Source: Microlunatus sagamiharensis (lineage in GTDB: Bacteria; Actinomycetota; Actinomycetes; Propionibacteriales; Propionibacteriaceae). Taken from it: a DNA stretch of 64,000 bases. The DNA lies in contig NZ_LT629799.1 of NCBI RefSeq assembly GCF_900105785.1, forward strand, positions 1,550,001-1,614,000, given 5' to 3'. Numbering within the stretch: position 1 is the stretch's first letter; each line of letters begins with the position of its first letter. The notes under the pieces were generated by a model, which saw nothing but the letters and a program-made list of their open reading frames with translations, did not search any database and was not told where the DNA came from. Of the stretch, positions 2 to 15,470 are shown piece after piece. The translations under genes and the position numbers were made by a program.

Positions 2-1582
2 GGCCTGGCGCTCGGCACGACCCAGCTCGCGGGCTGCGGCACGCCGCCCTCCCCGCAGGACCTCGGCCCGCCCGTGGCACCGCCCACCTACCGACCCCGG
101 ACGGGGCTGCCGAAACCGGACATCGCGGGGACCAGCGACGGGGTGATCCCGAGCTCGTACTTCAGCTATCCCGCCGACCCGGTGCGGACCGTCTCCGCCA
201 CCCCCGGCGACGGACGTCCGGTCACGATCCTGACCGAGACCTTCTCCTCGATCCCGCCCGCCGTCGACCGGAACTCGGTCTGGTCGAACCTCAACGCACG
301 GCTGGGCAGCCCGCTGCAGATCCAGATCGTCCCGCAGAGCGACTTCGGGGTGAAGTACGCGACGACCGTGGCCGGCGACGCGCTGCCCGACATGTTCTTC
401 GCCAGCCCCACGCCGGACTTCCCACGGACGCCCGAGCTGATGGCGGCGAAGGCGCTCGACCTGTCCGAGCACCTCGCCGGCGACGCGATCCTCGCCTACC
501 CCAACCTCGCGAACATCCCGACGTCCTGCTGGGACGTCGGCCGCTTCGACGGCCGGATCTACGGGCTGCCGTCCCCGCGCGGGGCGGTGTCGTCGGGCAT
601 CGTCTACCGCCGCGACGACCTGCTGAGGGCCAAGGGCATCACCGAGGAACCGCAGAGCTTCGCCGACTTCCGCGCCCTGTGCGTGGAGGTGAACGACCCG
701 CGAAGCAGCACCTGGGCGCTGACCTCCCCCGCGCTGCAGTTCCTCCGCAACATGCTGGACATCCCCAACTTCTGGCGTTGGAAGGACGGCGCCATGCAGA
801 GCTGGTGGACCGACCCCGGGCAGGAGCAGGCCCTCGACGCGGCCCGCGGCCTCTTCGCCGACGGCTTCGTGAACCCGGACGCCTTCACCGCCTCGGCCAG
901 CCCCAAGACCTGGTTCGGCACCGGCAAGGCGTACTTCACCGCCGACGCCTTCACCGCCTGGCCGTCCTACTACGCCTCGTACGGCGACACCGAGGGCTTC
1001 GCGGTCGACGGCTACGAGATCCCGGCCTTCGACGGCGGCGGGAAGGGCACGCTCTGGCTGAGCTTCCCGTCGTTCGGGTTCTCGGCGATCTCCAAGGACG
1101 CGGCCGACCGCGTCGAGGCCCTGCTGCGGATCGCCGACTACCTGGCCGCGCCGTTCGGCAGCGTCGAGTACCTGGCCGCCAAGTACGGCGTCGAGGGCCC
1201 CGACTTCGCGCTCGAGGACGGGAACATCGTGCCGACCAAGAGCGGCACGGCCGCGGCCCAGCTCGGGCTGAAGTACCTCGTCGACGCGCCGCAGGTGAAC
1301 TTCGTCCCGGGCAACGCCGACGCCGCCCGGGCGTGCGACCGGCTGCTGCGTGAGCTCGTCCCCCGCGCCACCGCCAACGACGCCGTCTACCTCTACTCCC
1401 GCACCGCGGCCGACCGCTTCGCGCAGTCGCAGACCCGCTTCACCGCGCTGGAGACCGACATCATGCAGGGCCGCAAGCCGGTCAGCGCCTGGCGGGAGGA
1501 ATCCGACGCCTGGTGGAAGCGCTACGGCCGCCAGATGAGCGAGGAGCTCGGTCAGGCGTACGTCGACGCCGGTCGCGGCTGA
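2..1582 (+). CDS. Extracellular solute-binding lipoprotein (ABC transporter, family 1 type), 5' end outside window
   Basis: The open frame already runs at the first base, so the start codon lies upstream of the window. Codons at 26-37 read L-A-G-C, a lipobox inside a hydrophobic signal-peptide tail, so the Cys encoded at 35-37 is the likely lipid-anchored first residue of the mature protein. An internal GTG at 74 would remove this signal and is therefore rejected as start. The mature part (about 515 aa) has the layout of a periplasmic-binding-fold sugar receptor: a VTILTETFSS opening strand, a DMFFA segment and Trp-rich middle and C-terminal parts (FWRWKDG, AWWKRYG). The family delivers sugars or oligosaccharides to an ABC permease; permease genes would be expected upstream, outside the window. 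Substrate unknown. The pectinesterase gene a few kilobases away makes plant-derived oligosaccharides an idea only. Confidence 0.8.
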   Translation, partial: GLALGTTQLAGCGTPPSPQDLGPPVAPPTYRPRTGLPKPDIAGTSDGVIPSSYFSYPADPVRTVSATPGDGRPVTILTETFSSIPPAVDRNSVWSNLNARLGSPLQIQIVPQSDFGVKYATTVAGDALPDMFFASPTPDFPRTPELMAAKALDLSEHLAGDAILAYPNLANIPTSCWDVGRFDGRIYGLPSPRGAVSSGIVYRRDDLLRAKGITEEPQSFADFRALCVEVNDPRSSTWALTSPALQFLRNMLDIPNFWRWKDGAMQSWWTDPGQEQALDAARGLFADGFVNPDAFTASASPKTWFGTGKAYFTADAFTAWPSYYASYGDTEGFAVDGYEIPAFDGGGKGTLWLSFPSFGFSAISKDAADRVEALLRIADYLAAPFGSVEYLAAKYGVEGPDFALEDGNIVPTKSGTAAAQLGLKYLVDAPQVNFVPGNADAARACDRLLRELVPRATANDAVYLYSRTAADRFAQSQTRFTALETDIMQGRKPVSAWREESDAWWKRYGRQMSEELGQAYVDAGRG

Positions 1583-1613
1583 GGGTCGGCGACGAGGGTC
1601 GGCGGAAGGAGGG

Positions 1614-3269
1614 TCAGCCCCGGCCGAGCACCGTCGACCCGTCGATCTTCAGGACCCCGTCGTCACGGACGAGGCGGAACGAGGTCCGTTCCACCGCCGT
1701 CCCGCTGGAGCGGCGGTAGGTGACCGTGGCCTCGACACCCGAGGGCGGCGTGGCGTCGACCTTGCTGACGGAGACGCTGTCGACCTGGCCCCAGAAGCGG
1801 TCGTACGACGCGCGGCCGCCGGAGGTCGTGCGCTGGTAGCTCGCCGTCAGGAGCGGCCAGGCCTCGTCGGTGTCGTCGGGGACCAGCGCGTAGTAGCGGG
1901 TGACCGCGTCCTCGAGCTCCGCGGCGGTCGGCCGGCCAGAGCTCGGCGTCGCGGTGAGCGAGGCGGTGGACGAGGCGGACGTCGCCGACGCGGACGGCGA
2001 CGGCGAGCGCCCCGGGGTGCTCGCGGCGGACGAGGTGGTGCTCCCGGAGCCGGGCCCCGCCGAGCCGGACGCGTCCGACGACGCCGACCGCTGCGGTGGG
2101 CGGGAGGTCGCAGGATCGGCGGCCACCCCGGAGCCACGGCCGCCGAGCTGCCCCGCGACGACGACGGCGCCGACCACGACCAGCCCGACGACGAGCAGGG
2201 CCAGCGCCACGACCGGCCCCCGGCGCCGGCGGTCCGCTCCGGCCGGCGCCGCCGACGCCGCGTCCGGCAGCTGGTCGTCCGGCTGCTCGTTCAGCTGCTC
2301 CGTCACGGGCACCACGGACGGCCCCTGGCGACGTCGCCGGGAGCGGACCTGGGTCGTCCAGACCTCCTCGGGGGCCACCGGGGTCTCCTGGTCCGGCAGC
2401 GCGAGCGTGGCCTCGGCTCCCGGCTCCGACGCTGACCCCGACTCCGGTGCCTCCGCCCCGACCGCCGAGAGCCGCGCGGACACGTCGGCCATGGTCGGTC
2501 GGGACCCGGGGTCGGCGCGGAGCATCTCCATCAGCACGGGCTCGAGCGGGCCGGCGTGCTCCGGCACGGCGAACTCGCCCGACGCCACCCGGTGGAGCAG
2601 CGCGATCGCGTTGCTGTCCGTGCCGAAGGGCGGGCCGCCCTCGAGGGCGGCGTACAGCGTCGCGCCGAGGGAGAAGACGTCGGAGGCCGAGCTCGAGCTC
2701 GCGCCGCGGGCGACCTCGGGCGCCAGGTAGGCGAGGGTGCCGTGCACCAGCCCGGTCGAGGTGAGGGTGGCGTCGCCGAGCGCGTGGGAGATCCCGAAGT
2801 CGCTGATCATCGCGGTGCCGTCGTCGGCCAGGAGGACGTTGCCCGGCTTGACGTCGCGGTGGACGATGCCGAGCTGGTGCGCCGCGGCCAGGGCGGAGGC
2901 GACCTGGGCACCGACGGCCGCCGTCTCCGGCACGTCCAGCGGACCGCCCTCGCGCAACCGGCTCGAGAGCGGCACCGAGGGCACGAACTGCATGACCAGG
3001 CACGGCTGCCCCTCGTGCTCGACCACGTCGAAGACGGGCACCGCGTTGCGGTGGTGGAGGCGCGCGGTGATGCGCGCCTCACGCATGGCCCGGCGCTTGG
3101 CGAGGTCGGCCTCCTCCGGCGCGAGCCCGACCTGCGGACGGAGCTGCTTGACCGCGACCGGGCGCTCGAGCCGCTCGTCCCTGGCCTCCCAGACGACGCC
3201 CATCCCGCCGCGACCGACCTGGCGGACGAGCCGGTAGCGGTCGGCCAGGAGCGTCTGCGGCTCGGCCAC
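1614..3269 (-). CDS. Membrane Ser/Thr protein kinase, PknB-like
   Basis: Single-pass eukaryotic-type kinase of about 551 aa. Kinase domain at residues 13-271: glycine loop VGRGGMGVVW, VAVK lysine (about 41), catalytic loop HRDVKPGN (Asp about 140), DFG (about 157-159), a Thr/Ser-rich activation loop and LAPE. A low-complexity juxtamembrane linker follows, then a Val/Leu/Ala transmembrane helix at about 352-374, a Ser/Thr/Pro-rich outer linker and a C-terminal NTF2-like segment instead of PASTA repeats. Start: the frame extends to a TTG at 3296, but the GTG at 3267-3269 has an AGGGGG Shine-Dalgarno just upstream and is preferred. It converges with the binding-protein gene (gap about 31 bases). 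Substrate unknown; the extracellular tail suggests a surface-sensing role, which is inference. Confidence 0.9.
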   Translation of the reverse strand: MAEPQTLLADRYRLVRQVGRGGMGVVWEARDERLERPVAVKQLRPQVGLAPEEADLAKRRAMREARITARLHHRNAVPVFDVVEHEGQPCLVMQFVPSVPLSSRLREGGPLDVPETAAVGAQVASALAAAHQLGIVHRDVKPGNVLLADDGTAMISDFGISHALGDATLTSTGLVHGTLAYLAPEVARGASSSSASDVFSLGATLYAALEGGPPFGTDSNAIALLHRVASGEFAVPEHAGPLEPVLMEMLRADPGSRPTMADVSARLSAVGAEAPESGSASEPGAEATLALPDQETPVAPEEVWTTQVRSRRRRQGPSVVPVTEQLNEQPDDQLPDAASAAPAGADRRRRGPVVALALLVVGLVVVGAVVVAGQLGGRGSGVAADPATSRPPQRSASSDASGSAGPGSGSTTSSAASTPGRSPSPSASATSASSTASLTATPSSGRPTAAELEDAVTRYYALVPDDTDEAWPLLTASYQRTTSGGRASYDRFWGQVDSVSVSKVDATPPSGVEATVTYRRSSGTAVERTSFRLVRDDGVLKIDGSTVLGRG

Positions 3270-4307: not shown

Positions 4308-4796
4308 CTAGCGCGCCCACCCCGCGAAGCTGTCGCCGCCGGAGCGGTTCCGGTGGGCGGCGCGACGCTGCCTGGGCTGCAGCGCCGACGCCACCGCCCG
4401 GACGAGCCAGGCGTTGACGGAGACGCCGTCCGCGGCTGCCGCCTCGTCGACCTGCGCCTTGAGGGCGTCGGGCAGCCGGAGCGTGGTGCGCGACGTGCTG
4501 GTGTCGTCGAGGTCGGCCGCCGCGGCGGGCCGGTCCTCGGCGCCGGGGTCGGCGCTCGGCGCACTCACCACGAGGTCCACCTCGCGGCCGCGCAGGCGGA
4601 GGTCCACCGAGCCGGGAGCGAGGTCGCGGGTGATCTCCCCGGCGGCCGCGGACAGCGCGTCGAGGAGCACCACGCGCACGGCGGCGTCGAGCTGGGTCAC
4701 CAGGCGCTCGGCGGCCACCCGCGTCTCCTCCGTACCGCCATTGGCGGCCGCGGCGAGCTGGCGCTGGAGGTCACCGACGTACGTCCCGAGATCCAT
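4308..4796 (-). CDS. Ribbon-helix-helix (Arc/HicB-type) DNA-binding protein
   Basis: 162 aa. The N-terminal half is predicted mostly helical (LQRQLAAAANGG, ERLVTQLDAAVRVVLLDAL) and of unknown function. The C-terminal half holds an RHH signature: the strand TTLRLPDALKAQVDEAA followed by a helix and GVSVNAWLVRAVASAL, typical of Arc/MetJ and HicB antitoxin DNA-binding domains. No toxin gene adjoins it, so a stand-alone repressor is more likely than an antitoxin. The ATG (4794-4796) directly abuts a cluster of TGACACCAT-type motifs and has no Shine-Dalgarno, which suggests a leaderless mRNA and autoregulation. Function beyond DNA binding is unknown. Confidence 0.7.
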   Translation of the reverse strand: MDLGTYVGDLQRQLAAAANGGTEETRVAAERLVTQLDAAVRVVLLDALSAAAGEITRDLAPGSVDLRLRGREVDLVVSAPSADPGAEDRPAAAADLDDTSTSRTTLRLPDALKAQVDEAAAADGVSVNAWLVRAVASALQPRQRRAAHRNRSGGDSFAGWAR

Positions 4797-4847
4797 GACA
4801 CCATGGTGACACCACTATGGTGTCAAGTCAAGCGCCCGATGGTGTCG
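4796..4847. promoter_or_regulatory. Four-copy TGACACCAT operator-like cluster
   Basis: The 9-mer TGACACCAT occurs at 4796-4804, as TGACACCAC at 4807-4815, and in reverse as ATGGTGTCA at 4817-4825 and ATGGTGTCG at 4839-4847. Copies 1 and 2 are 11 bases apart, about one helical turn, and copies 2 and 3 form an inverted pair. This arrangement fits cooperative binding of RHH dimers. The cluster covers the start of the RHH gene and lies about 40 bases upstream of the predicted -35 of the pectinesterase gene, so it could control one or both. Binding by the neighbouring RHH protein is inference. Confidence 0.6.
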
Positions 4848-4885
4848 CAGGGCGTTCGACGAGGCGCTCGTCACACGTGGTTCGG

Positions 4886-4914
4886 TTGTCAACTACCTAT
4901 ACGCTCGCCATACT
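4886..4914 (+). promoter_or_regulatory. Predicted sigma-70-type promoter of the pectinesterase gene
   Basis: TTGTCA (4886-4891), a 17-base spacer and CATACT (4909-4914) lie in an unusually AT-rich patch for this genome. This would give a leader of about 80 bases before the ATG at 5003, which has a GGGGGGAA Shine-Dalgarno. Prediction only. Confidence 0.45.
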
Positions 4915-5002
4915 TCTCTCAGGAATCCGCAAGTTTCGCGGGACCTTTCGTGCAGCTCGGGGGCGAGCTCACGCTTCGTACTGTTTCGGGGGGAACATCC
5001 GC

Positions 5003-8000
5003 ATGCGCTCTCGCGCGTCTTCTCACGTCGTCAAGCCTGCCCGCGGTCTCGTGCGCGGCCTGGTGGTGACGGCCACCGCCGCCGGTCTCGTGGTCGGCAT
5101 CGCTCCGTCGGCCACCGCCGCCGACACCACGCCGCCGCCCGTGCCCAGCAGCGTCAAGACCGTCTACTACGGCGGCGTCGGCACCCAGGTCAGCTGGGGC
5201 AAGGTCTCGGCGTCCGACCTCGACACCTACGTCGTCTACCGCTCCACCAGCAAGACGCTGGTCCCGGCGACCGACGCCGTCGGGACGACGACGTCGCTGA
5301 CGCTCACCGACGCGAAGGCCGTTGCCGGCACGACCTACTACTACGGCGTCGCCGCACGCGACAAGAGCGGCAACGTCTCCAAGCCGTCGAGCGTGCAGAC
5401 GGTCAAGGCCACCGACACCAGCGCGCCGAGCACCCCGAGCAGCCTGAAGGCGACCGCCACCAGCGGCGGCATCGCCCTCGACTGGGCCGACGTGGCGGTG
5501 CCCGACCTCGCGGGCTACAAGGTCGCCCGTGCCGCCAGCTCGAGCGGCACGTACACGACGCTCACCTCGTCGCCGCTCTCCACCTCCGCCTTCACCGACG
5601 CCAGCGCGCCCGCCGGCGCCACCGCCTACTACCGCGTCACCGCCGTCGACAGGACGGGCAACGCGTCCTCGGCGGCCAGCGTCTCGGCCAAGGCCGCCAC
5701 CGCGCCGGCCCCGAGCACCGCCCCGGCTGCCCCGACCGGGCTGAAGGCGACCGTCAGCAGCGCCAACGTCGTCACGCTGGCCTGGACCGCGCCCAGCGGC
5801 AGCATCACCGGCTACACGCTGTCCCGCTCGACCTCGAGCACGGGCACGTTCGCCACGGTCGCCTCTCCTGCCTCGACCGCGACGAGCGTCACCGACAGCT
5901 CGGCGCCGGCCGGTACGACCGTCTACTACCGCCTCGTCGCGACGAACGCGGTCGGGTCCTCCCCCGCCGCGACCGTCTCGGCGGCCACCTCGAAGGACAC
6001 GACCGCACCGGCGACCCCGTCGTCGCCGAAGGCCGTCGTCGTCGCCGGCGGCGGCGGCATGACCGTCTCCTGGACGGCCAACAAGGAGGCCGACCTCGCG
6101 GGCTACCTCGTGCTCAAGCGCAACGGCGCCGGGGACTACGTCACGCTGCTCGGGGCGGACAGGCCCTTCGTGCCGACCACCTTCACCGACCCGTCGGTGA
6201 CCGAGGGCAAGGTCGCCTACTTCCGGATCCGCGCCGTGGACACCAGCGGCAACGTGTCGTCCTACGTCTCGCTCACGGCCAACAACCCGAACGTCGCGCC
6301 CAAGGCGCCGGCCTCGCTCAAGGCCACCGTCAGCACCAAGGCGGGCATCGACCTCACCTGGGCGGCGCCGACGGACACCGACGTCGCGGGCTACAACGTC
6401 TACCGCTCGGTCGACGCCGGCAAGACCTACCCGCTGCTCGCGACGGCCACCGCCGCCGCGGTGACGGCCACCCCGCGCTTCGCCGACACCAGCGCCCCGC
6501 AGGGCGTGAAGTCGATGTACAAGATCACCGCGCAGGATGTCGTCGGCAACCTCTCCTCGGCCTCCACGGTCGTCTCGGCCACCTCGACGACGGCACCCGT
6601 CGCCCTGCCGGTCGTCACGAAGACGATCACCGTCGGCCCGGCCGGTCAGTTCCCGACCATCGGCGCGGCGCTCGCGACGATCCCGGCCACGAACCTCGAG
6701 AGCTACACCCTCGAGATCGCGCCGGGCACCTACCGCGAGAAGCTCCGCCTCTCGAGCCCGAACGTCACGCTGCACGGGACCGGCGCCGGCCCGGGCGACA
6801 CGGTGATCACCTACGACGCCGCCTCCGGGACCATCGACCCGACCGACGGCGAGCCGTACGGCACCGCGAACAGCTACACCGTCTTCGCCGAGGCGAAGAA
6901 CCTCAAGCTGGCCAACCTCTCGGTCGTCAACGCCTTCGACGAGGCCGCGCACCCCGAGATCACCAGCCAGCAGGCCGTCGCGCTGCGCGTCGAGGGCGAC
7001 CGCTTCGTCGCCGACGGCGTCCGGCTGATCGGCAACCAGGACACCCTGCTCGCCGACACCCCCAAGCCGACCACCCGGATCCGCCAGTACTACGTCAACA
7101 GCTACATCGAGGGTGACGTCGACTACCTGTTCGGTGCGGCGGACGCCGTCTTCGACCGGGTGACCCTCCGCTCCCTCGACCGCGGCAAGAGCGACAACGG
7201 CGCCATCACGGCCGCCAGCACCGACACCGGCAGCAAGTACGGCTTCCTGGTCGTCGACAGCAAGGTCGTCTCCTCGGCCGCGGCGGGCACCGTGCACCTC
7301 GGTCGCCCGTGGCACCCGAGCGCCGACCCCGACGCCATCGGCTCGGTCGTCTACAAGAACACCTGGCTGCCGGCCGCCATCGCGACCGACCAGCCCTGGG
7401 AGGACATGGCCACGGCGAACTCGTCGGGGACCAAGGTCAACTTCCGCTGGCAGGACGCGCGCTTCAGCGAGTACAGGAACATCGGCCCGGGCGCTCTGCC
7501 GACCGGAGCCGTGAACGCCAACCGGCCGCAGCTGACCGACTCCAACGCCGCCAACGCGACCCCGGCCAAGTACCTCGCGGGCAGCGACGGCTGGAACCCG
7601 GTGCTCCCGGCCGCGACCACGACCCCGGCGGCGCCCGCCGGCCTGGCCGTCACCACCGACAACCGCGTCGCCCACCTCGCCTGGGCCGACGACAGCTCCG
7701 CCGCCGTCGTCGGCTGGAAGGTCTACCGCTCCGAGAAGGGCGTCGAGACGGTCCTCGGCACCGTCGACCGGCCGGCCTTCAGCGACAGCAGCGCGGTCAA
7801 CGGCGCGATCTACAGCTACTCGGTGGCGGCCATCAGCCGGAGCGGTGCCGAGTCGGCCCGCAGCGCCGCGGTGACGGTCACGATCGCCGCGGCTCCCCTG
7901 GTCGTCGACCTGGTCGTCGACCCGGCCCACGCGGACGGGGTGAAGACCTTCGCCACCCTCGGCGCGGCCCTGGCCGCCGCTCCCGCCGGCACCGCTGCCG

Positions 8001-11000
8001 ACCCGACGGTCATCTCCGTCGTGCCCGGTCGCTACGCCGAGTACCTCACGATCGCGAAGCCCTACGTCACCGTCGTCGGCTCGACCGGCACGGCCTCCGA
8101 CGTCGTCATCACCGGCAACCGGGCGGCGGGCACGCCGACCGGCGGCAAGAACGACGACGGCACGCCCGCCACGTACGGGACCTCGGGCAGCGCCACGCTG
8201 CTGGTCACCGGGACCGGTGACTCGCTGCGCGACCTGACGGTCGAGAACGCGTACAAGGAGGGGACGTACGCCAACGGCCAGGCCGTGGCCATGCGGTCCA
8301 CCGGCGACAAGCTCGTCTTCGACAACATCCGCCTGCTCGGCAACCAGGACACCCTGTACGCCAACAGCGCGGGCACCACCGTCGCCTCGCGGCAGTACTT
8401 CCACGACTGCTACGTCGAGGGCGACGTCGACTACCTCTTCGGCCGCGCGACCGCCGTCTTCGACGGCTGCGTGCTGAGGTCGCTCGACCACGGCTCCTCG
8501 CCGAACGGGGCGGTCACCGCAGCCAGCACCGACACGAGCCAGAAGTACGGCTTCCTGATCACGCGGAGCCGCTTCACCGGCACCGCGCCGGACGGTTCGC
8601 AGAACCTGGGCCGCCCGTGGCAGCCCGGCCAGGCCCAGGCCGACGGCACGTCGGTCGCCGACAAGAACGCGGTCGCGCAGGTCGTCGTCCGCGACAGCTG
8701 GCTCGGTCCGGTCGTCAGCACCACGCAGACCTGGACCGACATGGTCAACAGCGGCACGACCACGCACTGGCAGGACGCCCGCTTCGCCGAGTGGGCCAAC
8801 TCCGGGCCGGGCGCCCTGCCCGCCGGCACCACGAGCGCCGGCCGTCCGCAGCTCAGCGCGGCCGACGCCGCGGCGTACACGCCGGAGACCTACCTCGCCG
8901 GTGCCGACGGCTGGAACCCGGTCGTCGACGCCGCTCCCGACGTCGCGCCCGCCGGGGTCACCGGCCTCACCGCCGGCGCCGACGACGGCCTCGTGACGCT
9001 GGCCTGGGACGACAGCACCGAGCCCGACGTCACCGGGTACCGGGTCTACCGGGCCGAGGGCGGCACGGTCACCCCGACCGACGCGACCCTGGTCGCCACG
9101 GTGGTCAAGCCGACGTTCGCCGACAAGGGCGTCGTCAACGGCACGGCGTACGCCTACACCGTCGTCGCCGTCGACGCGGCCGGGCACCCCTCGGCTGCGG
9201 CCGCCCCGGTGACCGTCACGCCGAACCCGCAGCCCCTCGTGGCCGACCTGACCGTGGCCAAGGACGGCAGCGGCGACTACACCTCGCTGCAGGCCGCCCT
9301 GACCGCGGCGAACGCGGGCACCGCCGCGAAGCCGACGGTGATCCTGGTCAAGCCGGGCACCTACCACGAGGTCGTCGCCTCGACGAAGGCCAACCTGGTG
9401 GTCGCCGGGACCACCGGCGACCCGCGGGACGTCCGCATCGAGTTCGACAACGCCAACGGCACGGCGGTCTCGGCGAGCACCTGCCCGCAGGTCACCAACG
9501 CCGCGACCTGCGGCACCTCGGGCAGCTACACCGTGTTCCTGTCCGGGTCGAACGTGAAGGTCTCCGACCTCACGATCGCGAACACCTTCGACAGGGACGC
9601 GCACCCCGAGATCGGGAACTTCAACACCCAGGCCGTCGCGCTGCGCATGACCGGCGACCGGCAGGTCTACCGGAACGTGCGGCTGCTCGGCGTGCAGGAC
9701 ACCGTGCTCGCCGACGCCCAGGGCAACATCAGCTCCACCGGCACGGGCTACCCGCGCCAGTACGTCGTGGGCTCCTACGTGGAGGGCAACGTCGACTTCG
9801 TCTTCGGCCGCGCCACCACGGTCTTCGACCGGACGACGATCCACGCGACGAGCCACAACGGCGGCACGGTCTTCGCGCCGAGCACGGCCAGCAAGAACCC
9901 GTACGGCTACCTGGTCGTCAACAGCCGCATCGTCAGCGACAACGACCCGGGCACCTTCGCCCTCGGCCGTCCCTGGCGCGGCTGGGGCGACGGCACCCAG
10001 CCGGACAGCTCGCGCGGCCAGACGACGATCCGCAACACCTGGATCGGCGAGGGCATCAGCACCGCCCAGCCCTGGGTCGACTTCGCGCCGAACGTCTGGA
10101 CCGACGGACGCTTCAGCGAGTACGCGAACAGCGGCCCGGGCGCCCTGGCGGCCGGGGCGCAGAACGGGAACCGTCCGCAGCTGAGCGACGCGCAGGCCGC
10201 TGACGCCACCGCGCAGAAGTACCTGGCCGGCACCGACGGCTGGAACCCGGTCGCCGCAGCGGCCCCGGACACGGCACCCGCCGCGCCACGCGGGCTGTCG
10301 GCGAAGGCCGGGGACGCCAAGGTCTCCCTCACCTGGGACGAGTCGGGCGAGCCCGACGTCGTCGGCTACCGCGTGCTGCGCGACGGCACGCAGGTGGGCG
10401 GCACCCTGACGCGGGCCTCCTACACCGACGCCGGTCTGACCAACGGCACCGCCGTCGGCTACACCGTGGTCGCGGTCGATGCGGCCGGGCACGTCTCCGC
10501 CGCCTCGGCGACGGCCAGCGCCACGCCGCAGCTCAAGGTCGACGCGGTGGTGGCGACCGACGGGTCCGGCGACTACCGCACCGTGCAGGCGGCGGTGGAC
10601 GCGGGCCCGGCCAACGGCCCGTGGCTGGTCAAGGTCATGCCCGGCACGTACGCCGGCACGACCACGATCGCCAAGAGCGGGATCACCGTCGTCGGCTCGA
10701 CCGGTGACCCCGCCGACGTCGTGCTGACCAACGCGACGGCGACGCCGACGCTGACGGTCTCCGGCTCCTCGGTGACCGTGCGCGCCCTGTCGGTCACCAA
10801 CAGCGCCGGGGTCAGCAACTCCCCGGCCGTGTCGATGACGGGTGACAAGGTGCTGCTCGACCGCACCACGCTGACCAGCACGGACCGCACGGTCTGGGCC
10901 GACGTCCCGACGGCCGGCGCGACCTCGCGCCAGCTCATCGAGGGCTCCACGGTCTCGGGCGCGAACAACGTCGTCCTGGGCCGCGCCACCCTCGTGGTCC

Positions 11001-13171
11001 ACGCCACGACGCTCGTCGCGACCAAGACCTCGGGCACGCTGCTGGTCCCCAGCACCACGGGCACCAACGGGCACGGGTTCCTGGTGATCGGCTCGACCGT
11101 GGCCCCGGCCGCGGGGGTCAGCGACGTCCGGCTCGGGGCGGGCTACGCCCAGGGCACGACGACGGCGGCCAACGCTCCCGAGGCGGTCGTGCGCGACACG
11201 GTCCTGAACGCCGGCATCAAGGCGCAGGTGTGGCAGGACTTCAACGGTTACAAGTGGGTCGACGGCCGGTTCGCGGAGTACGCGAACTCGGGTGCCGGCT
11301 CGGGCGTCACCGACCTGCGTCCGCAGCTCAGCCCCGCGGCGTCGGTCGGCTACACCGTCGCCGCATGGCTCGGGGCCCCGACCTGGTACGCCCCGGTCGC
11401 CGACCCGGCCACCCCGGCCGACGTCACCGCGCCGGCCACGCCGGCCGGCCTCGTCGCGGCCGGCGCCGACACCAGGGTCGACCTGACCTGGACGGCCGAC
11501 CCCGACGCCGCCTCCTACCGGCTCTACCGCGCGGTCGGCACCTCGGTGGTGGTCGGGCCGGGCACGCTGGTCCGCTCCGGGATCACCGGGGGTGCGTTCA
11601 GCAGCACCGGGCTGGCCAACGGCACGACCTACACCTGGGCGCTCGTCGCCGTCGACGCGGCGGGCAACACCTCGGTCGCGGCGACGGTCGCCGCCACTCC
11701 GGCCGACAGCCTCCCGCCGGCCGCGCCGGTCGGGGTCAAGGCCGGGGCCGGGGACAGCCGGGTCGTGCTGACCTGGACCGCGAACGGCGAGCCCGACCTC
11801 GCCGGCTACCGGGTCTACGCCGCGGGCGCGACCACGCACCTGAACGACGCGCTGCTCAAGGGCGCGACGTTCACGCAGACCGGGCTCGTCAACGGCACCG
11901 CGTACGCCTACGAGGTCACCGCGGTCGACGCCCAGGGCAACGAGTCGGCGCGCTCCGCGGTCGCCACCGGGACGCCGGCGGCCGGGGACACCACGCCTCC
12001 GGCCGTGCCCACCGGCGTCACCACGGTGCTCGGCAAGGGTTCGGTGGCCGTCGCCTGGAGCAAGGTCGACGACGCCGACCTCGCGTCGTACGACGTGCTC
12101 CGCTCCTCCGGCGGCGACCCGGCCACGGTGGTCGGGGCGGGGGTCACCGCGACGCGCTGGAGCGACACGACGGCCGTCGTCGGCACGACGTACACCTACA
12201 CGGTGCGGGCGACCGACACCGCGGGGAACGCCTCCGACGCCTCGACGGGCGCGAAGGCCACGCCGGTCAAGGCCGACGTCGTCGTCGCCGCCGACGGCTC
12301 GGGCGACGCGACCACGGTCGCGGGCGGCATCGCGCTGCTGGCCGACAACGCCGACTACACCGCCCAGGGCTACCGGACCGTGCTCGTGCAGCCCGGCACC
12401 TACGCCGGTGCGGTCAGCAGCGGCAACCGCTACGGCGTCCGGCTCGTCGGCGCCACGACGAACGCGGCCGACACGGTGCTGACCGCGCCGGGCGGTGCGG
12501 TGGCCACGCTGACGATCAGCGGCAAGGGCTGGACCGTCTCGAACCTGACGCTCGCCAGCGTCGCCACCGCGGCGGGGGCGCAGGCGACGGCCCTGCAGAT
12601 CAAGGCCGGCGACCAGCAGGTCGTCGACAACGTGCGGATGCTCGGCGACAAGCAGACCCTGCTCGTCTCCACGGCCAACGCCACGACCTTCTCCCGGGTC
12701 TACGTGCGCAACAGCCACCTCGAGGGCGGGGCCGACCTGGTCCTCGGTCGCGCGGTGACCGTGATCGAGCGCAGCACGATCCACGTGCTGAACCGGCCGG
12801 GCGCGAGCCTGACGGACAGCTCGGTCGACGCGGCCTCGCCGTACGGGTTCCTGGTCACGGGCAGCACGATCGTCACCGACGGCAACCCGGGCTCGGTGTT
12901 CCTCGGGCGGCCGTACTCGACGCAGGGCAAGGCGCAGGTCGTGGTGCGCGAGACCGAGCTCGGCTCGGCGCTCGCCACCGCCGGTCCGTGGAAGGACTGG
13001 GACGCGGCGACGCCGTGGACCGCCGGACGCTTCTTCGAGTACAAGAACACCGGCCCCGGCGCGGAGGTCGTCAACCCGGCCACGCGGCCGCAGCTCTCCG
13101 ACGCGGACGCGGCGGCCTTCACCGCGAAGGCCTACCTCGCGGGGACCGACGGCTGGAACCCCACCGCCTGA
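5003..13171 (+). CDS. Giant secreted multi-domain pectinesterase with fibronectin type III domains
   Basis: 2,722 aa. The ATG at 5003 is chosen for its strong GGGGGGAA Shine-Dalgarno and because a signal peptide follows at once (basic n-region, hydrophobic core, cut near SATAA/DTTPP, residues about 33-35). Five FnIII domains (about 37-530) precede pectinesterase domain PE1 (about 537-862). Then come FnIII-6, PE2 (about 967-1310), FnIII-7, PE3 (about 1411-1750), FnIII-8, PE4 (about 1846-2130), FnIII 9-11 and PE5 (about 2423-2722). PE1-3 keep the family residues: QDT (Gln679/Asp680, Gln1115/Asp1116, Gln1565/Asp1566), the second Asp in VDYLFG or VDFVFG (707, 1143, 1598) and Arg in LGRPW (768, 1204, 1656). 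In PE4 these read TDRT, ANNVVLG and LGAGY; in PE5 KQTL, ADLVLG and LGRPY, so both look non-catalytic. Pectinesterases remove methyl esters from pectin. No sortase motif or transmembrane anchor is visible, so it is probably released. Confidence 0.93.
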   Translation: MRSRASSHVVKPARGLVRGLVVTATAAGLVVGIAPSATAADTTPPPVPSSVKTVYYGGVGTQVSWGKVSASDLDTYVVYRSTSKTLVPATDAVGTTTSLTLTDAKAVAGTTYYYGVAARDKSGNVSKPSSVQTVKATDTSAPSTPSSLKATATSGGIALDWADVAVPDLAGYKVARAASSSGTYTTLTSSPLSTSAFTDASAPAGATAYYRVTAVDRTGNASSAASVSAKAATAPAPSTAPAAPTGLKATVSSANVVTLAWTAPSGSITGYTLSRSTSSTGTFATVASPASTATSVTDSSAPAGTTVYYRLVATNAVGSSPAATVSAATSKDTTAPATPSSPKAVVVAGGGGMTVSWTANKEADLAGYLVLKRNGAGDYVTLLGADRPFVPTTFTDPSVTEGKVAYFRIRAVDTSGNVSSYVSLTANNPNVAPKAPASLKATVSTKAGIDLTWAAPTDTDVAGYNVYRSVDAGKTYPLLATATAAAVTATPRFADTSAPQGVKSMYKITAQDVVGNLSSASTVVSATSTTAPVALPVVTKTITVGPAGQFPTIGAALATIPATNLESYTLEIAPGTYREKLRLSSPNVTLHGTGAGPGDTVITYDAASGTIDPTDGEPYGTANSYTVFAEAKNLKLANLSVVNAFDEAAHPEITSQQAVALRVEGDRFVADGVRLIGNQDTLLADTPKPTTRIRQYYVNSYIEGDVDYLFGAADAVFDRVTLRSLDRGKSDNGAITAASTDTGSKYGFLVVDSKVVSSAAAGTVHLGRPWHPSADPDAIGSVVYKNTWLPAAIATDQPWEDMATANSSGTKVNFRWQDARFSEYRNIGPGALPTGAVNANRPQLTDSNAANATPAKYLAGSDGWNPVLPAATTTPAAPAGLAVTTDNRVAHLAWADDSSAAVVGWKVYRSEKGVETVLGTVDRPAFSDSSAVNGAIYSYSVAAISRSGAESARSAAVTVTIAAAPLVVDLVVDPAHADGVKTFATLGAALAAAPAGTAADPTVISVVPGRYAEYLTIAKPYVTVVGSTGTASDVVITGNRAAGTPTGGKNDDGTPATYGTSGSATLLVTGTGDSLRDLTVENAYKEGTYANGQAVAMRSTGDKLVFDNIRLLGNQDTLYANSAGTTVASRQYFHDCYVEGDVDYLFGRATAVFDGCVLRSLDHGSSPNGAVTAASTDTSQKYGFLITRSRFTGTAPDGSQNLGRPWQPGQAQADGTSVADKNAVAQVVVRDSWLGPVVSTTQTWTDMVNSGTTTHWQDARFAEWANSGPGALPAGTTSAGRPQLSAADAAAYTPETYLAGADGWNPVVDAAPDVAPAGVTGLTAGADDGLVTLAWDDSTEPDVTGYRVYRAEGGTVTPTDATLVATVVKPTFADKGVVNGTAYAYTVVAVDAAGHPSAAAAPVTVTPNPQPLVADLTVAKDGSGDYTSLQAALTAANAGTAAKPTVILVKPGTYHEVVASTKANLVVAGTTGDPRDVRIEFDNANGTAVSASTCPQVTNAATCGTSGSYTVFLSGSNVKVSDLTIANTFDRDAHPEIGNFNTQAVALRMTGDRQVYRNVRLLGVQDTVLADAQGNISSTGTGYPRQYVVGSYVEGNVDFVFGRATTVFDRTTIHATSHNGGTVFAPSTASKNPYGYLVVNSRIVSDNDPGTFALGRPWRGWGDGTQPDSSRGQTTIRNTWIGEGISTAQPWVDFAPNVWTDGRFSEYANSGPGALAAGAQNGNRPQLSDAQAADATAQKYLAGTDGWNPVAAAAPDTAPAAPRGLSAKAGDAKVSLTWDESGEPDVVGYRVLRDGTQVGGTLTRASYTDAGLTNGTAVGYTVVAVDAAGHVSAASATASATPQLKVDAVVATDGSGDYRTVQAAVDAGPANGPWLVKVMPGTYAGTTTIAKSGITVVGSTGDPADVVLTNATATPTLTVSGSSVTVRALSVTNSAGVSNSPAVSMTGDKVLLDRTTLTSTDRTVWADVPTAGATSRQLIEGSTVSGANNVVLGRATLVVHATTLVATKTSGTLLVPSTTGTNGHGFLVIGSTVAPAAGVSDVRLGAGYAQGTTTAANAPEAVVRDTVLNAGIKAQVWQDFNGYKWVDGRFAEYANSGAGSGVTDLRPQLSPAASVGYTVAAWLGAPTWYAPVADPATPADVTAPATPAGLVAAGADTRVDLTWTADPDAASYRLYRAVGTSVVVGPGTLVRSGITGGAFSSTGLANGTTYTWALVAVDAAGNTSVAATVAATPADSLPPAAPVGVKAGAGDSRVVLTWTANGEPDLAGYRVYAAGATTHLNDALLKGATFTQTGLVNGTAYAYEVTAVDAQGNESARSAVATGTPAAGDTTPPAVPTGVTTVLGKGSVAVAWSKVDDADLASYDVLRSSGGDPATVVGAGVTATRWSDTTAVVGTTYTYTVRATDTAGNASDASTGAKATPVKADVVVAADGSGDATTVAGGIALLADNADYTAQGYRTVLVQPGTYAGAVSSGNRYGVRLVGATTNAADTVLTAPGGAVATLTISGKGWTVSNLTLASVATAAGAQATALQIKAGDQQVVDNVRMLGDKQTLLVSTANATTFSRVYVRNSHLEGGADLVLGRAVTVIERSTIHVLNRPGASLTDSSVDAASPYGFLVTGSTIVTDGNPGSVFLGRPYSTQGKAQVVVRETELGSALATAGPWKDWDAATPWTAGRFFEYKNTGPGAEVVNPATRPQLSDADAAAFTAKAYLAGTDGWNPTA

Positions 13172-13185
13172 GCACGACCATCGCC

Positions 13186-13221
13186 GACAGCTCCCCGGAC
13201 CGGCGGGTCCGGGGAGCTGTC
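13186..13221 (+). terminator. Strong hairpin terminator after pectinesterase gene
   Basis: Perfect 15-bp stem, GACAGCTCCCCGGAC at 13186-13200 pairing with 13207-13221 around a 6-base loop, starting 15 bases after the stop. No clear T-run follows, which is usual for actinobacterial terminators. Confidence 0.8.
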
Positions 13222-13297
13222 GTCCTCCGCCGGTCTGAGGAGACCCGCTCCCGTCGTCTAGCGTGACACGGAACCGGCACGAGGCGGGGGCTCGGGG

Positions 13298-14554
13298 ATG
13301 GTGGCACGGGTGGGGCGCTGGCTGCGTTCGCGCCTGCGCGCGCTGCTGTGGTGGCTGTGGCCGACCTCGCCCACCTCGTGGTCGCAGGTGCCCGCACGCC
13401 TCGCACCGACCGCGATCCAGGTCGGTCGGCTGACGACCGCGGCCGTCGTCGCGTACGTGGTCGCCGGTCGGCTGATCCCGGCAGGCGGGGTCGACCTGAC
13501 CGCGCCGCTGACGGCCCTGCTCGTCGTGCAGGCCTCCGCGGTCGGCACGCTGCGGATGGGGCTCGTCCGCGTCGGCGCCGTGCTGACCGGCGTCCTGGTC
13601 GCCGTCGCCGTGGGCGCGACCGTGGGGCTCACGTGGTGGAGCCTCGCCCTGGTCATCGCCGCGTCCCTCGTGCTCGCGAAGGTGCTGCGGCTCGCCGAGC
13701 AGTCGCTCGAGGCGCCGATCAGCGCGATGCTCATCCTGGCGGTGACGGCCCCGTCGCTCGCCGCCGAGGCGCGCGTCGGCCTGACCCTGGTCGGGACGGT
13801 CGTCGGGATCGGGTTCAGCCTCGTCGCGCCGGTGGCCATCCCCAACGCGCGGGCCGCCGAGGCCGTGCGCCGCGTCGCCCGATCCCAGGCCGCGCTGCTC
13901 AACGAGGTGGCGCTGGCCCTGGGCGGGCGCGCCCCCGAGCCCGACGAGGTGGCGGCCTGGTCCGACTGGGTGCGCGACGTCGACCGCGAGATCGCCGCCG
14001 CGTACGCCGCAGTGCGCGCGACCGAGGAGAGCCGCACGCTGAACGCGCGCGCCCTCACGACCGCCCGGGTCCACGACCGGCTCCGGGGTGCCGTCGAGCG
14101 GCTGGACCGCTGCCTGGCCGCCGAGCAGACCCTCCTCGGCGCGATCGCCGCCGCCTCGCGGTCCGAGGACGCGGGCGGCTCGACGGGGTCGGACCTGCGG
14201 CGGGCGTTCGCCGTCGTCCTCGACGACCTCGCCGACGGGCTCCGTGCGCTCGGCGACCTGCTGGGCGCGCCGCCGCGGGAGGACGGCCGGCGTCTGGCGC
14301 CGCTCGGCGCCCTCGACGACCGCCTCGCCGAGATCGTGCGGGAGTCGCGGGCGGTGCTCACCGAGCTCGTGCTGCTGGACGTCGACGCTCGTCGTCACCC
14401 CGACCGGTGGCTGGTCCAGGGGTCGATGCTGACCGCCGTGGACCAGGTCCTCACGCAGCTCGACCTCGACCTCGAGCCGCCGGCCGTGCGGCCACGCCTG
14501 CGCTGGACCCCCATGCCCGACGTCCCCCGACGACGCCTGTCCCGGCGTCGGTGA
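13298..14554 (+). CDS. FUSC/aromatic acid exporter-like membrane protein
   Basis: 418 aa. The N-terminal half (about 40-190) holds about six hydrophobic segments in closely spaced pairs (TAPLTALLVVQASAVG, VGAVLTGVLVAVAVGATVGL, LVGTVVGIGFSLVAPVAI), the pattern of the FUSC/ArAE (DUF939-like) exporters. The C-terminal half is soluble and helical with many Arg/Glu/Leu heptads. The family is linked to efflux of aromatic carboxylic acids or polyamine-like compounds; the substrate here is unknown. The gene is separated from the pectinesterase gene by a strong terminator and converges with the PAP2 gene, so it is probably transcribed alone. Confidence 0.7.
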   Translation: MVARVGRWLRSRLRALLWWLWPTSPTSWSQVPARLAPTAIQVGRLTTAAVVAYVVAGRLIPAGGVDLTAPLTALLVVQASAVGTLRMGLVRVGAVLTGVLVAVAVGATVGLTWWSLALVIAASLVLAKVLRLAEQSLEAPISAMLILAVTAPSLAAEARVGLTLVGTVVGIGFSLVAPVAIPNARAAEAVRRVARSQAALLNEVALALGGRAPEPDEVAAWSDWVRDVDREIAAAYAAVRATEESRTLNARALTTARVHDRLRGAVERLDRCLAAEQTLLGAIAAASRSEDAGGSTGSDLRRAFAVVLDDLADGLRALGDLLGAPPREDGRRLAPLGALDDRLAEIVRESRAVLTELVLLDVDARRHPDRWLVQGSMLTAVDQVLTQLDLDLEPPAVRPRLRWTPMPDVPRRRLSRRR

Positions 14555-14603
14555 GGTCGGACCGGCTCGCGCCGTCCGGCCCGGACGACGCCAGGACCTC
14601 CGG

Positions 14604-15470
14604 TCAGGTCCGGTGCGACCCGTGGCTCTGCGTCGAGGCACGCGGCTGCGGGGCCTCCGGCGCCCCGCGCTCGCGGGCGGTCAGGTAGAGACGGTGCGCG
14701 GTGACGACGACGGCGAGCCAGCCGGCGCCGAGGAGCCACGCGGCGAGGACGTCGGTGAACCAGTGGGCGCCGAGCAGCACGCGGGTCAGCCCGACGACGA
14801 CGGCGAGGACGACCGGGACGACGACGCAGGCGATCTTGGCCAGGACCGCGTGCCGGTGCAGCCAGAGCAGGTAGCCGACGACGCCGGCGACCACGGTCGC
14901 GTTGAGGGAGTGCCCGCTCGGGAAGGACGGCGAGTGCTCGAACGGCGGGACCGCGTCCACCAGCGGCGGGCGGCTCCGGCCGATGATGTCCTTGCCGGCG
15001 ATCGTCATCAGCAGCGAGCCCACCCCCGCCCCGGCGACGAGGATCACCGGTGTCCAGGACCTCCTGGTGAGCGCGAGCAGCAGGATCGCGGCGACCGCGA
15101 TGAGCGGCATCCCGACCGGGCCGAAGACGTACGCGACGCCGGCGGAGAACTCGTCGAGCCAGGGCCGCCGCAGCTGCATCGCCTCCTGCAGCATCGGCCG
15201 GTCGAGCATGGCGACGCCGTCGTTCTCGACCACGGCGTCGTAGACGCGGCTGACGAGGAACGACGCCGTGAAGGCGATGATTCCCCCGACGAGCAGGACG
15301 ATGGCCAGCGCCGGCTGCGCGCCGACCCGGTGCCCGACGCCGGTGGCCACGTGGGCCAGCCGGGTGCCCACGGGCCCGTACCAGTGCGTGACGACCGGAC
15401 GGCCCTCGAGGGCGGTGCTCCCCCGCCGCTCGACGCCGCGTGGCTGCGTCGGTCGCTCAGATCCCTGCAT
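14604..15470 (-). CDS. PAP2-family membrane phosphatase
   Basis: 288 aa, ATG with GGAGG 7 bases upstream. It shows the three PAP2 motifs in order: KDIIGRSRPP (K-x6-RP), PSGH, and TRVLLGAHWFTDV (R-x5-H-x3-D), spread between about six transmembrane helices. The N-terminal 30 residues and the C-terminal tail (rich in His, Ser, Gln) are probably cytoplasmic. Such enzymes remove phosphate from lipid substrates such as phosphatidic acid, undecaprenyl pyrophosphate or phosphatidylglycerol phosphate at the membrane; the exact substrate cannot be told. It lies downstream of der in the same direction, with a gap of about 88 bases. Confidence 0.88.
   Translation of the reverse strand: MQGSERPTQPRGVERRGSTALEGRPVVTHWYGPVGTRLAHVATGVGHRVGAQPALAIVLLVGGIIAFTASFLVSRVYDAVVENDGVAMLDRPMLQEAMQLRRPWLDEFSAGVAYVFGPVGMPLIAVAAILLLALTRRSWTPVILVAGAGVGSLLMTIAGKDIIGRSRPPLVDAVPPFEHSPSFPSGHSLNATVVAGVVGYLLWLHRHAVLAKIACVVVPVVLAVVVGLTRVLLGAHWFTDVLAAWLLGAGWLAVVVTAHRLYLTARERGAPEAPQPRASTQSHGSHRT

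Follow-up and report, generated by a model that had tools for sequence, protein, structure and literature searches.

Three complete pectin methylesterase active sites and two altered ones on a single, probably secreted chain of Microlunatus sagamiharensis

The DNA analyzed here is a stretch of 64,000 nucleotides from Microlunatus sagamiharensis (contig NZ_LT629799.1, positions 1,550,001 to 1,614,000; hereafter the window). Its plus strand encodes a protein with five pectin methylesterase domains (PME; CE8, PF01095), which we call PE1 to PE5 and list with the other features of the gene in Table 1. The reading frame is open from 4817 to 13171 (+) across 2784 codons, with its first ATG at 4817. 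The ATG at 5003 is the likelier start, because a G-rich, ribosome-site-like stretch, recognized by eye, precedes it and a signal-peptide-like leader follows it. An antisense ORF of 3240 aa (4919-14641, minus) spans the entire PME gene; because the homology sits in the plus frame, we set it aside as a real gene and regard it as probably a by-product of high G+C content. Between the PME gene and a divergent ORF with a HicB-type match (4308-4796, minus), we noted by eye a perfect 9-base inverted repeat (window 4796-4825; arms 4796-4804 and 4817-4825, spacing 12 bases), which looks like a candidate operator.

Pfam places PF01095 on the protein five times (total E 2.5e-124) and fn3 five times, and an HMM built on the linkers of this same protein brings the FN3 count to 11. 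The resulting order is five FN3, PE1, FN3, PE2, FN3, PE3, FN3, PE4, three FN3 and PE5, which forms the end of the chain. A PF01095 search of the whole 4.4-Mb genome returned these five matches only (E 2.2e-33 to 1.6e-13). Since each exceeds the curated cut-off, an origin by chance or artefact is rejected, and the five tandem PME domains proposed by an earlier, sequence-only reading of this stretch are confirmed. Against the cut-off of 27 bits, PE1, PE2 and PE3 score 115.8, 104.1 and 93.2 bits, PE4 scores 50.7 and PE5 scores 83.5. The protein also passes the cut-off of the NCBIfam model NF007822, 'putative acyl-CoA thioester hydrolase' (593.9 vs 436 bits). We do not accept this name, because the score is the sum of seven stretches on a five-domain protein; summing of this kind may lead automatic naming to mislabel such proteins.

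Table 1. Features of the five-PME gene in the window (positions counted from the first nucleotide of the window).
Feature	Position	Strand	Basis
Five-PME protein, likely start 5003 (frame open from ATG 4817)	5003..13171	+	ORF, Pfam; start by eye
Signal-peptide-like leader, about 40 residues	5003..5122	+	By eye on translation
FN3 domains 1-5	5129..6589	+	Home-made HMM; fn3 by Pfam
PE1, complete PME active site	6620..7606	+	PF01095, residue placement
FN3 domain 6	7619..7888	+	Home-made HMM
PE2, complete PME active site	7907..8926	+	Pfam, PF01095, residue placement
FN3 domain 7	8942..9226	+	Home-made HMM
PE3, complete PME catalytic set (Met306 = Phe)	9245..10255	+	PF01095, residue placement
FN3 domain 8	10271..10531	+	Home-made HMM
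PE4, putatively non-catalytic PME-fold domain, type B (D177, R178, N199, A267, Y269, F306)	10541..11398	+	PF01095, AF2, Foldseek, residues
PE4 segment carrying 10 of the protein's 11 fixed differences between types A and B	10814..11242	+	Sequence comparison
FN3 domains 9-11	11426..12268	+	Home-made HMM
PE5, putatively non-catalytic PME-fold domain, C-terminal end (K177, Q178, D199, R267, Y269, W306)	12275..13168	+	PF01095, AF2, Foldseek, residues

The closest named relative, 89.9% identical across the protein, belongs to Microlunatus flavus (L014, counted once with G005, which has identical hit scores), and full-length relatives of about 65% occur in Paractinoplanes toevensis and P. tereljensis (L015, L016). 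In the window's family, 9 of the 198 genomes searched had PF01095 matches. With at most the best five candidates scored per genome, so that further copies may exist, they were also found in 51 of 393 genomes of a class-wide sample and in 16 of 398 genomes of a second family of the same class, that of genome G380. Among the matches listed for the class-wide sample, five PF01095 domains in one long frame appear only in the window's genome and in G380. Matches occur in 1 of 60 genomes of G380's genus, and another genus (15 genomes) has frames of 326-564 aa only. Nine intact five-domain proteins come from G380's family (G380, G656, G746, G793, G811, G845, G875, G900 and G937). Together with those of the window, M. 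flavus and the two Paractinoplanes they make up the set of 13 intact proteins used below, from which G782 (four PMEs) and G774 (one PME) were kept apart. Weak or partial matches (L008/L027, L029-L031) were left out of trees and counts, and a long multi-PME frame with one in-frame TGA (G686:C1, about 229016-235249) was left out of the counts. The order PE1-PE5 is identical in all 13 proteins and PE5 is always the C-terminal end, with FN3 domains varying from 10 to 13. The patchy distribution of these genes among genomes suggests gene transfer or frequent loss. A long-frame search of plasmids matched 66 records, none of which covered 80% of the protein in one place. In Nonomuraea sp. PA05 (L017, 9866-12166), a single PME is followed by a stretch that resembles, by eye, a PL1 pectate lyase.

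The PME gene appears to stand alone, because its neighbors vary between lineages. Forty neighboring proteins were scanned, ten from each of four sets (the window; L015/L016; L044, L025 and L014; L052, L053, L055 and L057-L060, with L054 and L056 excluded). Nine of the 40 matched no family at all, and no CE8, polysaccharide lyase or GH28 family was found among the others, so we rejected a pectin gene cluster for the loci scanned. At the G793 locus (L055), one neighbor is a weak fn3 match (1341-3005) and another is a sortase (11237-12142). Searches of the 4.4-Mb genome itself gave no match to PF00544 or PF00295, for which 2 and 4 of 14 control genomes, respectively, were positive; PF03211 had zero matches here and likewise in the control genomes, so its absence carries no weight.

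To compare active sites, all domains were aligned onto PemA numbering, with substrate contacts as given in PMC10530356. On translation and alignment, every motif named by the earlier reading was borne out: QDT, VDYLFG/VDFVFG and LGRPW in PE1-PE3; TDRT, ANNVVLG and LGAGY in PE4; KQTL, ADLVLG and LGRPY in PE5. The set Q153, Q177, D178, D199, F202, R267 and W269 is complete in all 39 PE1-PE3 copies of the 13 proteins, and all 25 further actinobacterial PME domains included for the trees have it too. PE1-PE3 thus belong to CE8 by profile and by the catalytic residues Q177, D178, D199, R267 and W269. Judged by these residues, they are probably active PMEs that would release methanol from pectin, and because the chain holds three complete active sites, we infer that its action on pectin is multivalent.

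PE4 and PE5 belong with CE8 by profile and predicted fold but lack the catalytic pair of Gln177 and Asp178. Asp178 is absent from all 26 copies and Gln177 is present in one; Lys or Arg occupies position 177 or 178 in every copy, as DR, NR, GR, KQ or QK pairs, and Trp269 is Tyr throughout. In PE4, the changes D178 to Arg, F202 to Leu and W269 to Tyr are found in 13 of 13 copies; D199 is kept in 7 and is Asn in 6, and R267 is kept in 7. PE5 keeps D199 and R267 in 13 of 13 copies, its 177/178 pair is KQ in 11, QK in one and GR in one, and M306 is Trp in 12. The PE5 of the window retains Q153, D199 and R267 and has lost Q177, D178, F202, W269 and M306, whereas its PE4 has lost D199 and R267 as well and is without every catalytic residue. 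The earlier division into three active-looking and two decayed domains holds up for the active sites but not for the decay: the replacements are fixed or nearly fixed in 13 orthologs, so the pocket of PE4 and PE5 looks rebuilt rather than decayed.

Structure prediction supports this assignment of fold. AF2 models built from 22-row alignments that included active PMEs reached pLDDT 93.0 and pTM 0.92 for PE4, and pLDDT 91.2 and pTM 0.92 for PE5. In Foldseek the first 15 PDB hits of each were PMEs or YbhC, with TMq of 0.67-0.86 (PE4) and 0.65-0.84 (PE5). Solved PMEs were the best matches and pectate lyases ranked far below. PE4 and PE5 are therefore predicted to fold as PMEs. The entry 2nsp, titled PemA D178A in complex with hexasaccharide I, was ranked first for PE4 and third for PE5, a precedent indicating that a PME fold without D178 can hold pectin.

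Both altered domains are under purifying selection, beside the catalytic modules. Nei-Gojobori dN/dS for PE1 to PE5 is 0.165, 0.153, 0.144, 0.138 and 0.197 between the window and M. flavus, and 0.110, 0.217, 0.339, 0.197 and 0.285 between the two Paractinoplanes, with dS rough because third positions are 94-99.7% G+C. Upper bounds for PE4 and PE5 are at most 0.46 in both species pairs. Between lineages PE4 nevertheless varies more than any of the other four domains, and the lowest between-protein identities are 47% for PE4 and 55% for PE5. We also compared the conservation of nine pocket columns with background. The pocket is more conserved in PE1 (P 0.0005), PE2 (0.0008) and PE3 (0.011). For PE4 the test gave 0.62 over all 13 copies, 0.092 for the type A and 0.012 for the type B copies defined below. 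For PE5 it gave a borderline 0.054 over all 13 copies, and 0.002 when the rows of G380 and G746 were dropped after inspection of the data. Net charge over 17 substrate-contact columns is 0 or -1 in 39 of 39 PE1-PE3 copies, +1 in 13 of 13 PE4 copies, and +2 in 12 of 13 PE5 copies with 0 in the remaining one. Among draws of 17 random columns, 12% reached the PE4 charge shift relative to PE1-PE3 and 2% reached that of PE5. The charge has a consistent sign but its magnitude is weak evidence, most of all in PE4, and the control weakens charge reversal as a proof of binding.

PE4 occurs with two kinds of pocket. Type A (R178, D199, R267, G306) is found in both Paractinoplanes, G380, G746, G793, G811 and G900, and type B (D177, R178, N199, G or A at 267, F306) in the window, M. 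flavus, G656, G845, G875 and G937. Trees of PE1, PE2 and PE3 join the window and M. flavus with Paractinoplanes (100/100, 99/98 and 97/96), whereas the PE4 tree groups the type B copies (100/100). In tests whose groups were named after the trees were seen, the type B set as one group was rejected for PE1 (AU p 2.8e-10) and PE2 (0.0016) and not for PE3 (0.11). PE4 rejected a Microlunatus-Paractinoplanes clade (AU p 0.00024), and PE5 rejected neither grouping (AU p 0.20, 0.14). Along the entire protein 11 fixed differences distinguish type A from type B, and residues 2000-2142, within PE4, contain 10 of them; 21 fixed differences separate Microlunatus plus Paractinoplanes from the rest, and one of them is in PE4. 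A sliding-window comparison puts the first third of PE4 nearer to Paractinoplanes and the remainder nearer to G875. These patterns suggest that the pocket-bearing segment of PE4 has a history unlike that of PE1-PE3, and exchange of a piece is the simplest reading; the same picture would arise from an ancient duplication followed by unequal loss, or from shared selection.

Each of the five positions forms a clade in a 50-row tree (support 100, SH-aLRT at least 97), so they predate the split of the five proteins included in it. PE4 and PE5 are sisters in this unrooted tree (94/97). A quick, unrooted 62-row tree, which took nine of the 13 intact proteins and part of the outgroup rows, sets PE4 and PE5, along with domain 1 of the four-PME relative G782, apart by a branch without firm support (87) and joins the G782 domain to PE5 (96). 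Keeping PE4 and PE5 as a pair without the G782 domain lowers the likelihood by 11.8 log units (AU p 0.12); a single dead ancestor of the two is a possibility that these trees do not establish. The earlier view that PE4 and PE5 evolved from catalytic copies agrees with their predicted PME fold; descent from PE1-PE3 themselves was seen in neither unrooted tree. G782 (L054, 3234-11711) has a PE5-like first domain with a KQ pair, two domains with the full catalytic set and a last domain with QN at 177/178, so a PE5-like domain without the catalytic pair occurs in another, four-PME protein. In two-PME proteins from the window's own family, G016 (L025, 3441-8132) and G126 (L045, L046), the C-terminal copy adjoins PE3 in trees, which suggests that the five-PME chain grew from a two-domain ancestor, possibly like these proteins. 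They too carry tandem PMEs in one frame, but both of their copies have a complete active site, and PE4 and PE5 are absent.

Set against known systems, PE1-PE3 share their fold and the set Q153, Q177, D178, D199, F202, R267 and W269 with CE8 PMEs such as PemA of Erwinia/Dickeya and the carrot and tomato enzymes. Those enzymes are single catalytic domains, whereas here five stand on one chain with FN3 domains, two of them without the catalytic Asp. A CE8 fold that likewise departs from the catalytic set is E. coli YbhC (PDB 3grh), annotated as an acyl-CoA thioester hydrolase and a top-five fold match. In our alignment it has QN at 177/178, keeps D199 and R267 and is changed at W269. PE4 and PE5 differ in carrying R, Q or K at 178, within a five-PME, probably secreted chain; the Asn178 of YbhC is found in neither, and the QN pair recurs in domain 4 of G782. 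PmeC5-type proteins of Butyrivibrio fibrisolvens are similarly large (about 2000-2200 aa), secreted and PME-bearing, but join the PME to a PL9 lyase and binding domains, and the available part of that source mentions no case of several PMEs (PMC12109409). CBM77 binds homogalacturonan of low esterification (PMC5943554), the ligand we propose below for PE4 and PE5; we claim no kinship. Our literature search, which most subscription journals lay outside, found no bacterial protein with several or dead PME domains.

We propose, with a probability of about 0.5, that this protein is a multivalent PME with two built-in, PME-derived, non-hydrolytic modules that probably bind de-esterified homogalacturonan. 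It would be a secreted bead-on-string enzyme without a recognized cell-wall anchor, in which PE1-PE3 demethylate homogalacturonan by the standard CE8 mechanism. The active site of PemA has an acidic patch made up of D178 and D199, and un-methylated sugars are favored at subsites -1 to -3 (PMC3913658). With a basic residue at the Gln-Asp pair and the catalytic Asp gone, PE4 and PE5 are not expected to hydrolyze methyl esters: this exchange of an acid for a base should abolish hydrolysis and make the pocket favor the carboxylate product. They would most likely hold homogalacturonan and prefer the anionic, de-esterified form that PE1-PE3 would produce. Such binding may keep the enzyme on freshly demethylated pectin while the catalytic copies treat neighboring stretches. 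One point against this proposal is that the genome has no PF00544 or PF00295 match to explain what becomes of the pectin product.

A possible though clearly less likely explanation is that PE4 and PE5 have pockets without a ligand and serve as structural spacers or stiff rods for the display of PE1-PE3. The lack of extra conservation in the PE4 pocket columns over 13 copies (P 0.62) fits this idea, as does the altered methyl pocket (F202, W269, M306); we also count in its favor that the chain already has FN3 spacers, variable in number. A spacer has no need for R178 in 13 of 13 PE4 copies, nor for D199 and R267 in 13 of 13 PE5 copies, and the replaced pocket residues are conserved within each PE4 type and in most PE5 copies.

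We consider it improbable that PE4, PE5 or both have acquired a new catalytic activity on pectin, perhaps that of a lyase or of a different esterase, in which the conserved Arg or Lys takes part in catalysis. In several beta-helix pectate lyases the base is an Arg or a Lys, which we count for such an activity, together with the fixed R178 of PE4, the retained D199 and R267 of PE5 and the absence of PF00544 and PF00295 matches from the genome. Foldseek nonetheless places both domains with PMEs and far from pectate lyases, and type B PE4 has neither D199 nor R267. The more specific notion that the Arg (PE4) or Lys (PE5) groove acts on the de-esterified product, for instance as a lyase base, has just as slim a chance; one chain would then demethylate and cut, and the two PE4 types, exchanged between lineages, would be two specificities of this activity. 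We disfavor most strongly the view that PE4 and PE5 are dead relics on their way out, since, for all the missing catalytic residues of the window's PE4 and the low conservation of PE4 between lineages, dN/dS is far below 1 and both domains are kept in 13 of 13 intact proteins despite identities down to 47% and 55%.

Modules of this kind, sitting beside their parent enzyme, offer a direct test of how an esterase groove becomes a binding groove. The 13 orthologs display the substitutions and how well these are conserved, and a built-in control is provided by the probably active copies of the same chain. The PE4 segment with its own history is a candidate specificity cassette traded between lineages. 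Should PE4 and PE5 prove to bind de-esterified pectin, they would be a pectin-binding module that arose from a PME, and the chain would be a natural blueprint for tethering an enzyme to what it makes.
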